NCBI RefSeq assembly: GCF_900166625.1
Contig: NZ_LT800499.1
Span: 449,618-513,617, forward strand
Direction of reading: 5' to 3'
Source of the DNA: Halobacillus massiliensis
GTDB lineage: Bacteria; Bacillota; Bacilli; Bacillales; Halobacillaceae
Length of the DNA stretch: 64,000 nt
The notes beneath the pieces were generated by a model, which was not told the origin of the DNA, made no database searches, and was given only the letters and a program-made list of their open reading frames with translations. This document shows, piece after piece, positions 21,825-38,578 of the stretch. Made by a program: the position numbers and the translations under genes. The stretch's first letter is position 1. Every line of letters begins with the position of its first letter.

Positions 21825-21858
21825 GGAAGGTCAGTCCATTTACTGGACTGACCTTTTC
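21825..21858 (+). terminator. Terminator of the 5'-3' exonuclease gene
   Basis: The 12-bp stem AAGGTCAGTCCA/TGGACTGACCTT is followed by TTCTTTTT. The stop codon of the convergent regulator lies in its loop region. Confidence 0.85.
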
Positions 21859-23120
21859 TTTTTGGAACGGAGGTTCTTTTTCTGTAAGGATATATAATGA
21901 TTGGCTTCCATAAAAAACGTCGCGGCTTTCTTGTAATGACGTTTTCTGTAATAAATATCACCGAGCAGTTCCAGATGCTCTTTGTAATCCTCGAATTCAT
22001 CAAGACGGAGAAAATCAGGCAGGATTTCTTTCTCAAGTTTTTCAATGAAAGATTCTTCGTCGGTCTTTTTCAGTATGATCTGTTTTAGAACAAATAGTTT
22101 ATGTTCAAATTTTAAACTGTTTGTATTGACCGCTTCTTCTTCTCCAAGAGATATGTAGTTCCACATAGAGGTTTCTCCAAAATTACCCCAAAAGGACGTT
22201 TTGGCAAGCAGAAAATAATTAGCAGCTTTCTCTGTTTGATTCAGCTCTAATGACTTATGGAGGAAATCATGAGCTTTTTCATATTTCTCCTGATGATAAT
22301 AAATGAAGCCCATATGATGATAAATCTTTCCACGTTCGGAAAGGCTCAGCTGGTTTTTTGGAACACGGAGAAGCTGTAAAAAAATGCGTTCAGCCGCAGA
22401 TTGAACATCCAGAGAGCTATAATTCCTGCCCAGCAGCATATAACATTGAGTTACTTTTGGAGAGTTAAACGAATTCTGAAACCCTTCGAGGGCAATTTCC
22501 GCATAGTAATTAGACTCTACATACATATGAAGATGAGTATAAGTAAGAGCGAGATGGAAGTATAGCTCATGGTCACTAAGCGAAAACTGTTCTAAAAGAT
22601 CTTCAGCTGAGTGTAAATGGGTTATAGCTTGTTTGTAATCGGCAGTTATAAAATAGTGGATCCCTACCGTTTTGAAATATAAAAAACGGTATTCATAGGA
22701 AGATTGAGAGTAATTTCCGTGGAGTTGATTTAAAACATCCTCTGGGAGAGGCTGTTTTTGAGTAGTAAGGATGTAGCGAGAGTGAATCACCTTATAAAGG
22801 CCCACAAGCTCAAAATTTTGATTCGCTTGAAGCTCTGCCTGGCATTTTATATAAAGATATTCCGCATTCTCTAAATCCTTTAGCTTAATCGCTTCATGCC
22901 ACTGCATCAGCTGGTCATAGATCCGTTTATCAAATTTCTCACTAAAGGTATCCAATTTGATATTGAGCTTATCACTCAGCAGTCGGTAAATTTCATCACT
23001 TGCTCTAAAATTATTACGTTCAATTTTACTGAGATAGGATGGGGAACAGATGCCTTTCGATAACTGTTCCAATGTTAATTTTTTGTATTTTCGGTGCTGT
23101 TTAATTAATTGACCTTTCAT
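21840..23120 (-). CDS. XRE-HTH plus TPR regulator of the RRNPP type, without adjacent peptide gene
   Basis: A 426-residue cytoplasmic regulator. Residues about 1-60 are an XRE helix-turn-helix ('LTLEQLSKGICSPSYLSKIERN'), the rest is a run of TPR-like helical repeats ('SERGKIYHHMGFIYYHQEKYEKAHDFLHKSLEL'), the layout of PlcR/NprR-type peptide-sensing regulators. The start is ATG 23120 behind AGAGGTGG. Unlike its paralogue near 37-38 kb, no secreted-peptide frame overlaps or follows its 3' end, since the convergent exonuclease terminator begins there. Its ligand, if any, must be encoded elsewhere. Confidence 0.82.
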   Translation of the reverse strand: MKGQLIKQHRKYKKLTLEQLSKGICSPSYLSKIERNNFRASDEIYRLLSDKLNIKLDTFSEKFDKRIYDQLMQWHEAIKLKDLENAEYLYIKCQAELQANQNFELVGLYKVIHSRYILTTQKQPLPEDVLNQLHGNYSQSSYEYRFLYFKTVGIHYFITADYKQAITHLHSAEDLLEQFSLSDHELYFHLALTYTHLHMYVESNYYAEIALEGFQNSFNSPKVTQCYMLLGRNYSSLDVQSAAERIFLQLLRVPKNQLSLSERGKIYHHMGFIYYHQEKYEKAHDFLHKSLELNQTEKAANYFLLAKTSFWGNFGETSMWNYISLGEEEAVNTNSLKFEHKLFVLKQIILKKTDEESFIEKLEKEILPDFLRLDEFEDYKEHLELLGDIYYRKRHYKKAATFFMEANHYISLQKKNLRSKKKRSVQ

Positions 23121-23267
23121 TAAAAACCACCTCTTCTTCATAAATATTATATTTATTATACCAAAAGAACTATTTGAAAAGTGAATAAATTAGGTAATTT
23201 ATCATAATTTTTGTTTTCTTTGTAAGTATTTAGTTAGGTTTATGGTATTAGAAAGCTGTAAGTGGCG

Positions 23268-23440
23268 GGGGAGAGGGTGAACTGTCGAAAGAGCAGGGAG
23301 AAGAGTCGAAAGGGAGCGGAGAACCGCCGAAAGCGAGGAGAAGAGTTGAAAGGGAGCGGAGAACCGCCGAAAGCGAGGAGAAGAGCTGAAAGGGAGCGCA
23401 GAAGCGTCGAAAGAGCAGGAAGGGACGTCGAAAGGAAGAC
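23268..23440. repeat. Purine-rich tandem repeat (about 40-bp period, 20-bp sub-period)
   Basis: Units of about 40 bp, such as GAGAAGAGTCGAAAGGGAGC followed by GGAGAACCGCCGAAAGCGAG, occur in two near-identical copies and degrade into a third and into the flanks. Each half-unit contains CGAAAG...GGAGAA, giving a 20-bp sub-period. The plus strand is nearly all purine apart from the CG and CCGCCG blocks. It lies between the RRNPP regulator and the SDR gene. Confidence 0.85.
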
Positions 23441-23449
23441 GGCATACAT

Positions 23450-36773: not shown

Positions 36774-36806
36774 AAAAAAAGACCTCTGCTATTTAAGCAG
36801 AGGTAA
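36774..36806 (-). terminator. Terminator of the RRNPP regulator/pro-peptide transcript
   Basis: The stem ACCTCTGC/GCAGAGGT is followed on the minus strand by seven T residues, about 60 nt after the pro-peptide stop. It closes the regulator-peptide unit. Confidence 0.82.
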
Positions 36807-36867
36807 AAGATTTATAGGTATAGGATTAGGGGAGGTGTTATTAATTAACACACATTGAAAAATAAAC

Positions 36868-36984
36868 TTAAACTTGTTCAATCAAGGGTCTAGGCCATGT
36901 GTCTTCTGCGCTGTCATATACAATAGGTGCGGCGGCAGAAGATAACAGTATAGCAACTGCTAAGACAGCAAATAATTTTTTCAC
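36868..36984 (-). CDS. Secreted pro-peptide, 38 aa, probable quorum-sensing signal of the upstream regulator
   Basis: A 38-codon frame starting at GTG 36984, preceded at 8 nt by the strong site AGGAGGG that lies inside the last codons of the upstream regulator. Start and regulator stop overlap as GTGA. The product has a basic start and hydrophobic core ('MKKLFAVLAVAILLSSAAA', a Sec signal peptide) and a short exported tail ending 'DTWPRPLIEQV'. This is the layout of the PapR, NprX and Phr pro-peptides, which are exported, trimmed and re-imported by an oligopeptide permease. The active segment is probably within the last 5-11 residues. It is followed by a minus-strand terminator. Confidence 0.78.
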   Translation of the reverse strand: MKKLFAVLAVAILLSSAAAPIVYDSAEDTWPRPLIEQV

Positions 36985-38255
36985 AGAATGATCCCTCCTA
37001 AGTGAGAATGTTTATTTAACAATTGAATTGCTAACCTAAGGTAAGTTGAAGATTTCTTGTACATTCGCTTTTTTTCCAATAGGTCTGAAAGAAACATTGA
37101 ATAGCGAATAATGTAAATATGGTTCTTCTTTTCCTTGAAGTAAGGAATAACTTCTTCTTCTAAAAAACTCTCGATATCTTGTGAATCCTCTATAAGCAGT
37201 TGATAAAAAGTAAAGTGCAATTTATGAGCTGTCGAAGGATATGTAAGCAATTTTTTAAACCCATCCTCCACCCAGTAACTGCATCCATTCAAGTCATTCA
37301 TTTTATAATGTTCTGTAACCAGACCATGTATTGCATTTAATAATTCAAACTTTGCCTCTCTATCAAATGGATACTCTAAACTTTTTTTATAATTATTAAT
37401 TGAGGCTTCATGCTTTCCTCTTCGAGATTCTAAAACTCCCAGATTAATAAAAACTAAACGTAATTGAAAGTAATCATCAGTCTGTAAAGCAATTTTTTTC
37501 GCTAATTCGTAATTCTCTAAGGACTTCGTATAATTTTTTAGTCTGCTAAAGTTAATGCCCAATATAATATGACAATCAGCACTTCTAGAAAGGTCGTAGT
37601 GAGACTGATATCTCTCCAGTGCCTGTTCTGTATAAAATATTGAGGCGGAAATAAAATTCAGCTGACTTGTGCCCAGTGCTAAAAGATAGAATAGGTCACT
37701 TATTTCCCAATTTTTCACTTCAATAGCAGAACTATGGTTTTTGGCTTCCAATAACTCCTCGTAAGAATTATCAAAATCTCCGCGATAATACATAACTAAC
37801 CCGGTGATTAAATGGTAATAAAACGCCATCTCTTCATCAAATGTATCTTTATGCTGCTTAATATTTTCCCATGCTTCATAAGCCTCCTCTACCTCACCTT
37901 TTAAAAGCAAGTATCGGATGCGGAAAAGTTCATAGAAAACATACAATTGATGGTTTTCGAGCATACTCTTCTGCTGAAGGAGTTCATCTTGCAGCTCTCT
38001 GGCATCGTCTGTGCGCTTATGTACGATCGCTTCATACCATTCCAACAGTTTTTCCTTTGATGGATGGTTGATTGCAGGATCATTAAAGTCAATTCCAAGC
38101 CGTTCATAGAGCAGCTCCAAGACTTCAATGGCAGGCATAGTCTGATCATTTTCTATCTTAGAAAGGTAAGCAGACGAAATGATGCCTTCAGCGAGCTGGT
38201 TTTGTGTTAAACCTTGTTTAACACGATGAAACCGAAGCGCTTTACCATATTCCAT
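36981..38255 (-). CDS. RRNPP-type peptide-sensing regulator (XRE HTH plus TPR)
   Basis: A 424-residue regulator. The XRE helix-turn-helix spans about residues 5-60 ('LTQNQLAEGIISSAYLSKIEND'), and about 70-424 are TPR-like repeats ('ADCHIILGINFSRLKNYTKSLENYELAKKI') forming a peptide pocket. The start is ATG 38255 behind AGGTGTG. It overlaps the 38-residue pro-peptide gene by 4 nt, so receptor and signal are translationally coupled, as in PlcR-PapR and NprR-NprX. It is a paralogue of the regulator at 21.8-23.1 kb. Targets are not visible here. Confidence 0.87.
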   Translation of the reverse strand: MEYGKALRFHRVKQGLTQNQLAEGIISSAYLSKIENDQTMPAIEVLELLYERLGIDFNDPAINHPSKEKLLEWYEAIVHKRTDDARELQDELLQQKSMLENHQLYVFYELFRIRYLLLKGEVEEAYEAWENIKQHKDTFDEEMAFYYHLITGLVMYYRGDFDNSYEELLEAKNHSSAIEVKNWEISDLFYLLALGTSQLNFISASIFYTEQALERYQSHYDLSRSADCHIILGINFSRLKNYTKSLENYELAKKIALQTDDYFQLRLVFINLGVLESRRGKHEASINNYKKSLEYPFDREAKFELLNAIHGLVTEHYKMNDLNGCSYWVEDGFKKLLTYPSTAHKLHFTFYQLLIEDSQDIESFLEEEVIPYFKEKKNHIYIIRYSMFLSDLLEKKRMYKKSSTYLRLAIQLLNKHSHLGGIIL

Positions 38256-38578
38256 TTTCACACACACCTAGTTGATCAACTGTCGATTTGTAGATTATTT
38301 TATCTCCAAATCTATTTTCAGAATACACGTTCGATGATTATTTTTCAACTATATAAATAGGTTTCCCAAGTCATGCTATTTTCATAGTCTTAAGTAGGTA
38401 AAAAAGGACCAACTTTCACAGATTTTAGCCATGAAAGAACAAATTATACGGGAAAGTACCAGGTCTAAAGAACAGGAAAGTGAAGAAAGGATTCCTGTGT
38501 GCATGAGTAAATATACCAAATTAAGGGTATAAATGGTATAGGAAAATAGATAATTATAAAGAAGGAGGAGAACGAATC

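Follow-up and report, generated by a model that had tools for sequence, protein, structure and literature searches.

A probable NprR-like quorum-sensing pair with overlapping receptor and propeptide genes in Halobacillus

In the PlcR-PapR system, a receptor with a helix-turn-helix (HTH) and TPRs is encoded beside a small propeptide gene. Rap and NprR constitute a clan of nine-TPR folds (NprR in clan B), PlcR is placed among the five-TPR folds, and Rap proteins carry no HTH, according to the accessible sections of PMC12700828. NprR is described as a dual protein, a Spo0F inhibitor without peptide and a DNA-binding activator with peptide, and the minimal active form of NprX is SKPDIVG (accessible sections of PMC4970707). 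In three Halobacillus strains nprR is listed among the genes found by similarity, and the peptide is not mentioned in the accessible sections of that source (PMC12167742). The literature searched contained no work joining Halobacillus and RRNPP, and no described Halobacillus peptide signal was among the matches listed. The pair described here may be in the list of a large RRNPP survey, available in part (PMC10075063).

The window, i.e. the whole 64,000-nucleotide stretch of Halobacillus massiliensis DNA that was analysed, carries a receptor-propeptide unit on its minus strand. The features of this unit, in window coordinates, were as follows.

36981..38255, minus strand: RRNPP regulator gene, 424 aa from the ATG at 38255 to the TGA at 36981, with an XRE HTH and a (predicted) nine-TPR domain
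36868..36984, minus strand: propeptide gene, 38 codons with a GTG start, encoding a signal peptide and a pro-part of 19-20 residues
36928..36984, minus strand: Sec signal-peptide part of the propeptide, MKKLFAVLAVAILLSSAAA, with the cleavage site placed by eye
36880..36897, minus strand: putative pheromone core WPRPLI, from comparison of peptides
36981..36984, minus strand: GTGA start/stop overlap of the regulator and propeptide genes, a -4 overlap in 34/34 clade genomes
36993..36999, minus strand: Shine-Dalgarno sequence AGGAGGG for the propeptide gene, 8 nt upstream of its GTG
36813..36839, minus strand: conserved 3'UTR element, AACACCTCCCCTAATCCTATACCTATA, between the propeptide stop and the terminator
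36818-36832, minus strand: invariant 15-mer of the 3'UTR element, CCCCTAATCCTATAC
36782..36804, minus strand: intrinsic terminator hairpin, showing compensatory changes between species
38320..38348, minus strand: sigma-A-like operon promoter TTGAAA-17-TATTCT, a conserved consensus match
38361..38372, minus strand: conserved (G)ACTTGGGAAAC, a candidate operator, upstream of the promoter
38270..38312, minus strand: conserved 5' leader containing hairpins, of which the last is AGTTGATCAACT, ending just before the receptor ribosome-binding site

The initial annotation had described an HTH and TPR regulator overlapping a 38-codon frame by GTGA, an AGGAGGG ahead of the small frame and a minus-strand terminator closing the unit, and each of these was found at the positions given above. 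The Shine-Dalgarno sequence sits within the C-terminal Leu-Gly-Gly codons of the regulator, and the regulator ended in LGG at 51 of 53 loci and in IGG at the remaining two. An in-frame GTG at 38267 is an alternative regulator start, giving 428 aa. MEYGK was present at the regulator start in all loci compared for the upstream region. The translated propeptide is VKKLFAVLAVAILLSSAAAPIVYDSAEDTWPRPLIEQV, with Met as the first residue in the cell. Its export was judged solely from the signal-peptide-like N-terminus, by eye; the hydrophobic core and small residues of this part were conserved in the peptide alignment.

Pfam matches in the regulator comprised HTH_3 at the N-terminus (E 2e-10, residues 14-61 of the 428-aa reading), TPR_12 and RapH_N, and the HTH was among the best-conserved parts of the protein. 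A structure model was prepared from an alignment of 66 rows, made up of proteins from the window and the loci (pLDDT 89.4, pTM 0.79). An earlier model from an 11-row alignment was poor (pLDDT 59.7) and was not used. After the HTH, the model contained about 19 helices, which aligned to the nine-TPR chains of Rap and NprR. The closest solved structures were Rap-peptide complexes (Z 35.1), apo NprR 5dbk (Z 34.4) and NprR-NprX 4gpk (Z 32.5); PlcR stood at rank 38 of the Foldseek listing, with a TM of 0.38 to the query. The fold match spans residues of about 59-420, and the HTH is therefore outside what the fold comparison tests. By sequence, the best solved relative was NprR (E 1e-22 with a profile), followed by Rap. 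From the model, the regulator is predicted to fold as a nine-TPR receptor of the Rap/NprR kind, not as PlcR; between the two architectures originally named for this locus, PlcR-PapR and NprR-NprX, it is the latter that was retained. A PlcR-type receptor with five TPRs was rejected because of the nine-TPR match, and a Rap-Phr type, without HTH, because of the HTH_3 match.

A tree was made from a selection of 46 proteins that included 14 Halobacillus receptors. These receptors formed one clade (100/100), next to those of the sister genus g5 and other NprR-like receptors (95/86). The TPR part of Bacillus thuringiensis NprR fell outside, grouped with two Halobacillus paralogs at a support of 94/75 on long branches. 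As a feature of RRNPP(A) systems, a TPR receptor (with HTH) adjoining a small gene for a putatively exported propeptide was found; as features of the NprR-NprX subfamily, an HTH with a predicted nine-TPR fold and a downstream, putatively exported propeptide with a short Pro-containing core were found.

Within the window, 293 of 1928 NTGA sites open a frame of 30-60 codons. For this reason a GTGA overlap in a single genome is weak evidence, and the same count favours reading the small frame as a chance ORF at the 3' end of the regulator. The family search covered 44 genomes, of which 34 form the clade with the system (11 of the own genus, and 22 plus 1 in two sister genera). In the 10 other genus-group genomes, the regulator was 67-73% identical and the peptide frame stood at -4. 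No relative was confirmed when named genomes were scanned with a single sequence. An alignment-based scan gave 23 loci, all on Halobacillus contigs and all with the small frame (23/23), several of these contigs duplicating assemblies in the genome set, so that the counts are not independent. The frame was at -4 in 53/53 loci (50 ATGA, 3 GTGA), many of which are the same genome twice; together with 4 further loci, 34 genomes were covered. All 34 Halobacillus-clade genomes held a signal-peptide-like frame of 38-42 aa at -4, and collapsing duplicates left 33 distinct peptides of 38-42 aa. Because 34/34 clade genomes keep such a frame at the same overlap, the 38-codon frame is a true gene, and the expectation that related regulators would carry a secreted frame at their 3' ends was borne out. 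Frame, start position, core and Shine-Dalgarno sequence were conserved over the 33 distinct sequences. The chance-ORF reading is refuted by this conservation and was rejected, its probability being negligible.

Codon patterns had also been proposed as a sign of coding constraint. Synonymous changes outnumbered non-synonymous changes in L008/L009 (12 vs 2) and L011/L012 (5 vs 3), whereas pairs such as the peptides L044/L048 (7 synonymous vs 22 non-synonymous) had no synonymous excess; the expected coding constraint was found, though not in every pair. The pooled peptide values were pS 0.63 and pN 0.34, and the resulting pN/pS of 0.55 is weak evidence alone because synonymous sites are near saturation.

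In one genome (G025; locus L108, G025:C1:1210300-1212800) the regulator frame was interrupted, and the last codons, overlap, peptide frame, upstream motif and 3'UTR element were intact. The interruption could be decay or a sequencing error.

The pro-part contained [W/Y/H/F]-P-x-P in 32/33 distinct peptides, the exception (L039) having YPPL. The residue after the P-x-P core was Leu in 28/33, and [LI][VI] stood there in 25/33. The final 3-6 residues, behind the core, were variable, and the conserved part of the peptide is for this reason regarded as an internal core. A variable mature part with conserved end residues had been anticipated; variable part and conserved residues were both present, but the latter were internal. 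In the sister genus g5, 3/4 genomes held such a receptor at the search threshold, and the -4 overlap and Leu-Gly-Gly ending were found in all 3 loci read. One g5 tail was EKHPKPDVTLV, with HPKPDV as its core. The other two (2/3 loci) carried tandem repeats, AGEDHPRPDVQLY-AGEDHPRPDVTFS and AGEGDHPAPSVQNY-AGEEDHPAPSVQI, of the DHPRPDV or DHPAPSV type at the place of the pheromone core. Pheromone precursors with tandem repeats are known (PMC11343458, accessible sections). The repeated unit suggests a g5 signal of about (E)DHPxPxV, and by analogy with these repeats the Halobacillus signal would be (E)xWPRPLI.

Distant NprR-like receptors (33-37% identical, 15 loci) adjoined propeptides whose cores included AEHPDPTS, DNDYPDTQEV and three tandem SEPDHPKIV; L085 was the single locus of the 15 at which no candidate propeptide was recognised within the length limit. 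Among 8 other family loci, L113 and L114 ended in SDEDHPEY at -4, L121 had KDHPTPPEV, L116 and L122 had other tails, and L112, L115 and L120 had no propeptide-like frame. Four plasmid homologues comprised one with a P-x-P core, one with the tail EEEFPPFSSKL, one with an unrelated-looking tail and one with no small frame by the filter used. The best plasmid match was that of Priestia koreensis FS-1, with a receptor 32% identical over 96% and, downstream of it, an annotated 42-aa hypothetical protein ending EEEFPEPTVAQVLI. Two NprR-NprX systems are carried on plasmids of strain FS-1 (PMC10075063, accessible sections), and we infer that the FS-1 locus is one of the two. The tail of the window propeptide had been described as unlike any known peptide. 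This did not hold, as NprR-like neighbours have the cores HPRPDV, FPEPTV and HPDPTS. Because related receptors adjoin peptides with related cores, the putative Halobacillus signal is best described as an NprX-type variant. That receptor and signal have a new specificity of their own is plausible.

Two further NprR-like receptors were observed in other Halobacillus genomes (L014 and L016), with propeptides at -4 whose tails contain PDNDDFPEANS and EPDNDEYPDI; each type occurred in one genome of those examined. A second RRNPP-like HTH and TPR regulator was also present in the window, at 21840-23141 on the minus strand, 15 kb away from and 25% identical to the first. A counterpart was found 15-17 kb from the first regulator in 6/10 other genus-group genomes. 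No secreted frame was found behind this second regulator, and the convergent next gene ends 17 nt off; from its sequence context it is an orphan receptor. Short direct repeats of the GAGAAGAGTTGAAAGGGAGCGGAGAACCGCCGAAAGC type were seen by eye at window positions 23262-23445, in the gap that precedes the orphan receptor gene.

Upstream of the operon, ACTTGGGAAAC was present at 53/53 loci, and GACTTGGGAAAC had 45 exact sites in the 34 clade genomes, 32 of them at the operon locus. Promoter-like matches in the upstream region were not in excess (5 vs 7.1 in shuffles). The 5' leader contained three small helices giving two hairpins, with 97.8% of cells paired and four pairs changed on both sides, and its shuffle control does not remove the relatedness among the sequences. 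The leader palindrome AGTTGATCAACT had 55 exact sites in the 34 clade genomes, 32 at the operon locus.

Downstream of the propeptide gene, the 15-mer CCCCTAATCCTATAC was identical in 33/33 distinct loci, and most neighbouring flank positions were conserved in 27 to 32 of 33. The element is C-rich, with the nearly invariant tag AACACCUCCCCUAAUCCUAUACCUAUA and the stretch CCCCTAATCC within it, and lies 16-75 nt from the peptide stop. The 15-mer occurred exactly once per genome in 34/34 clade genomes, always just downstream of the regulator, and was absent from 10 of 10 other family genomes and from 22 loci of non-clade homologues. The element is retained both with convergent and with co-directional downstream genes, and is therefore most likely part of the operon transcript. 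In the adjoining terminator, 6/9 pairs had double changes (shuffled mean 4.1), with 31 such cells vs 7.7. The element itself was unpaired in the consensus structure. Rfam gave no match at gathering score in the window, and near the element weak sub-threshold matches only; the element string was not found in the literature searched.

No second exact copy of the element was found in the 44 genomes. A 19-mer with up to 3 mismatches gave 12 matches in 6 genomes, 6 at the operon and 6 elsewhere, the latter equal to a reversed-pattern control (6); one non-operon match that was inspected lay inside a transporter-like gene. For a 12-mer, with 1 mismatch allowed, there were at least 176 matches (operon copies included) vs at least 152 for the reversed control in 11 genomes, which was not counted as enrichment. 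Such C-rich tags are able to pair with Shine-Dalgarno sequences, as the icaR 3'UTR reportedly does. Pairing in cis was scanned in 33 transcripts, in windows that ran from -80 to about +1270 relative to the receptor gene. Mean duplex energy reached its minimum (-13.4 kcal/mol) at the receptor ribosome-binding site and start codon, and pairing of the element with its own mRNA was no better than that of shuffled elements (mean z -0.39; -0.68 at the pheromone Shine-Dalgarno sequence). The pheromone Shine-Dalgarno window ranked from 1 to 59 of about 290. It is tentatively proposed, as a possibility rather than the expected outcome, that a dedicated regulatory RNA element plus covarying terminator forms the end of the pheromone mRNA and serves either as a small RNA derived from the 3'UTR or as a retro-regulator of the operon itself. 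If true, one transcript would carry receptor and pheromone together with an RNA arm of their quorum-sensing circuit. Alternatively, the element may be a protein-binding DNA site or an antisense promoter.

Taken as a whole, the locus is very probably an NprR-like RRNPP quorum-sensing pair, chromosomal in Halobacillus, with receptor and pheromone translationally coupled. The initial proposal, in which a secreted propeptide is coupled to an RRNPP receptor, is supported by the two genes with their conserved -4 overlap, by coding constraint, by the predicted receptor fold and by the co-occurrence of both genes. A single transcript would yield the receptor and, by the start/stop overlap, its propeptide. 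The propeptide would be exported by Sec, trimmed so as to leave a short peptide around [W/Y/H]PRPL[V/I], and taken back up by an oligopeptide permease. The peptide would then bind the TPR groove of the receptor and alter DNA binding by the HTH, giving a transcriptional output. Re-import is possible because the genome encodes, over the cut-off, five SBP_bac_5 (oligopeptide-type) binding proteins; one Spo0A was also found. Points against an NprR-like pair are the several NprR residues not kept in the receptor alignment, the position of NprR outside the clade in the tree, the peptide pairs without synonymous excess and the untidy distant homologues.

The small frame might instead encode a co-transcribed secreted or membrane peptide, e.g. 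a small effector or an antimicrobial, that is not the ligand of the regulator; the conserved part is short, and the receptor-peptide pairing is read from the genes. Such a role is very improbable, given that the overlap with the receptor gene is fixed in 34/34 genomes, that the peptide has a short PxP core, and that similar peptides stand beside homologous receptors, some tandem-repeated like known pheromone precursors. It is also unlikely that the receptor is mainly a Rap-like inhibitor of the sporulation phosphorelay, relieved by the peptide, with the HTH secondary. This reading draws on the RapH_N match, on Rap structures being as close as NprR by fold, on the presence of Spo0A and on part of a residue comparison, made in a sequence alignment of 33 distinct receptors whose register could be off by one. 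In that alignment the NprR W79 and Y223 equivalents were kept in 33/33 and the RapH E137 column was Glu in 31/33; the NprR E188 column held Glu in only 7/33. With the same uncertainty of register, the D107 equivalent was N in 32/33, that of Y118 was R in 29/33 and the RapH Q47 column was H in 33/33, all of which oppose a Rap-like inhibitor, as does the strong conservation of the HTH. The R126 equivalent was N in 28/33, that of N407 was S or T in 33/33 and that of Y410 was L in 33/33 (register likewise uncertain). The NprR residues not kept include several for peptide binding, dimerisation and Spo0F contacts. Because few of the residues with which NprR contacts Spo0F are kept, a Spo0F or sporulation arm is doubtful. 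The peptide pocket likely differs from that of NprR, as expected for a different peptide.

As an NprR-like pair, the locus would provide Halobacillus with a concrete, testable quorum-sensing pair whose likely pheromone core is readable from comparison. The peptide dialect is nearly constant across the genus. The sister genus and the distant NprR-like receptors add a graded series of cores, which is material for receptor-ligand co-evolution, and the 3'UTR element, if functional, would give an RRNPP operon a further layer at the RNA level. The locus is a new branch of the known NprR-like family with an ordinary architecture and, at its end, a conserved putative RNA element.

With PlcR-PapR, the locus shares an HTH and TPR receptor adjoining a small propeptide gene, but PlcR has five TPRs. 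With Rap-Phr it shares the nine-TPR fold and the RapH_N domain, but Rap proteins are without HTH, and the RapH Q47 column is His in the Halobacillus receptors. The Priestia koreensis FS-1 pair resembles it in the receptor and in having an aromatic-P-x-P-x-V core in the propeptide tail EEEFPEPTVAQVLI; it differs in being plasmid-borne, in having the propeptide 11 nt after the receptor stop with no overlap and in the absence of the 3'UTR 15-mer from a 4.25 kb stretch of the locus. NprR-NprX of the Bacillus cereus group differs from the Halobacillus pair, which has the core [W/Y/H]PRPL[V/I], a 4-nt gene overlap, its own clade in the tree and a conserved 3'UTR element, and in whose receptor alignment the equivalents of D107, Y118, R126, N407 and Y410 are not kept. 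The two have in common an HTH and nine-TPR receptor (predicted in Halobacillus), about 425 aa long and adjoined by a small exported propeptide, with export being putative here, and NprX SKPDIVG shares with the Halobacillus core the Pro and, two residues on, I-V.
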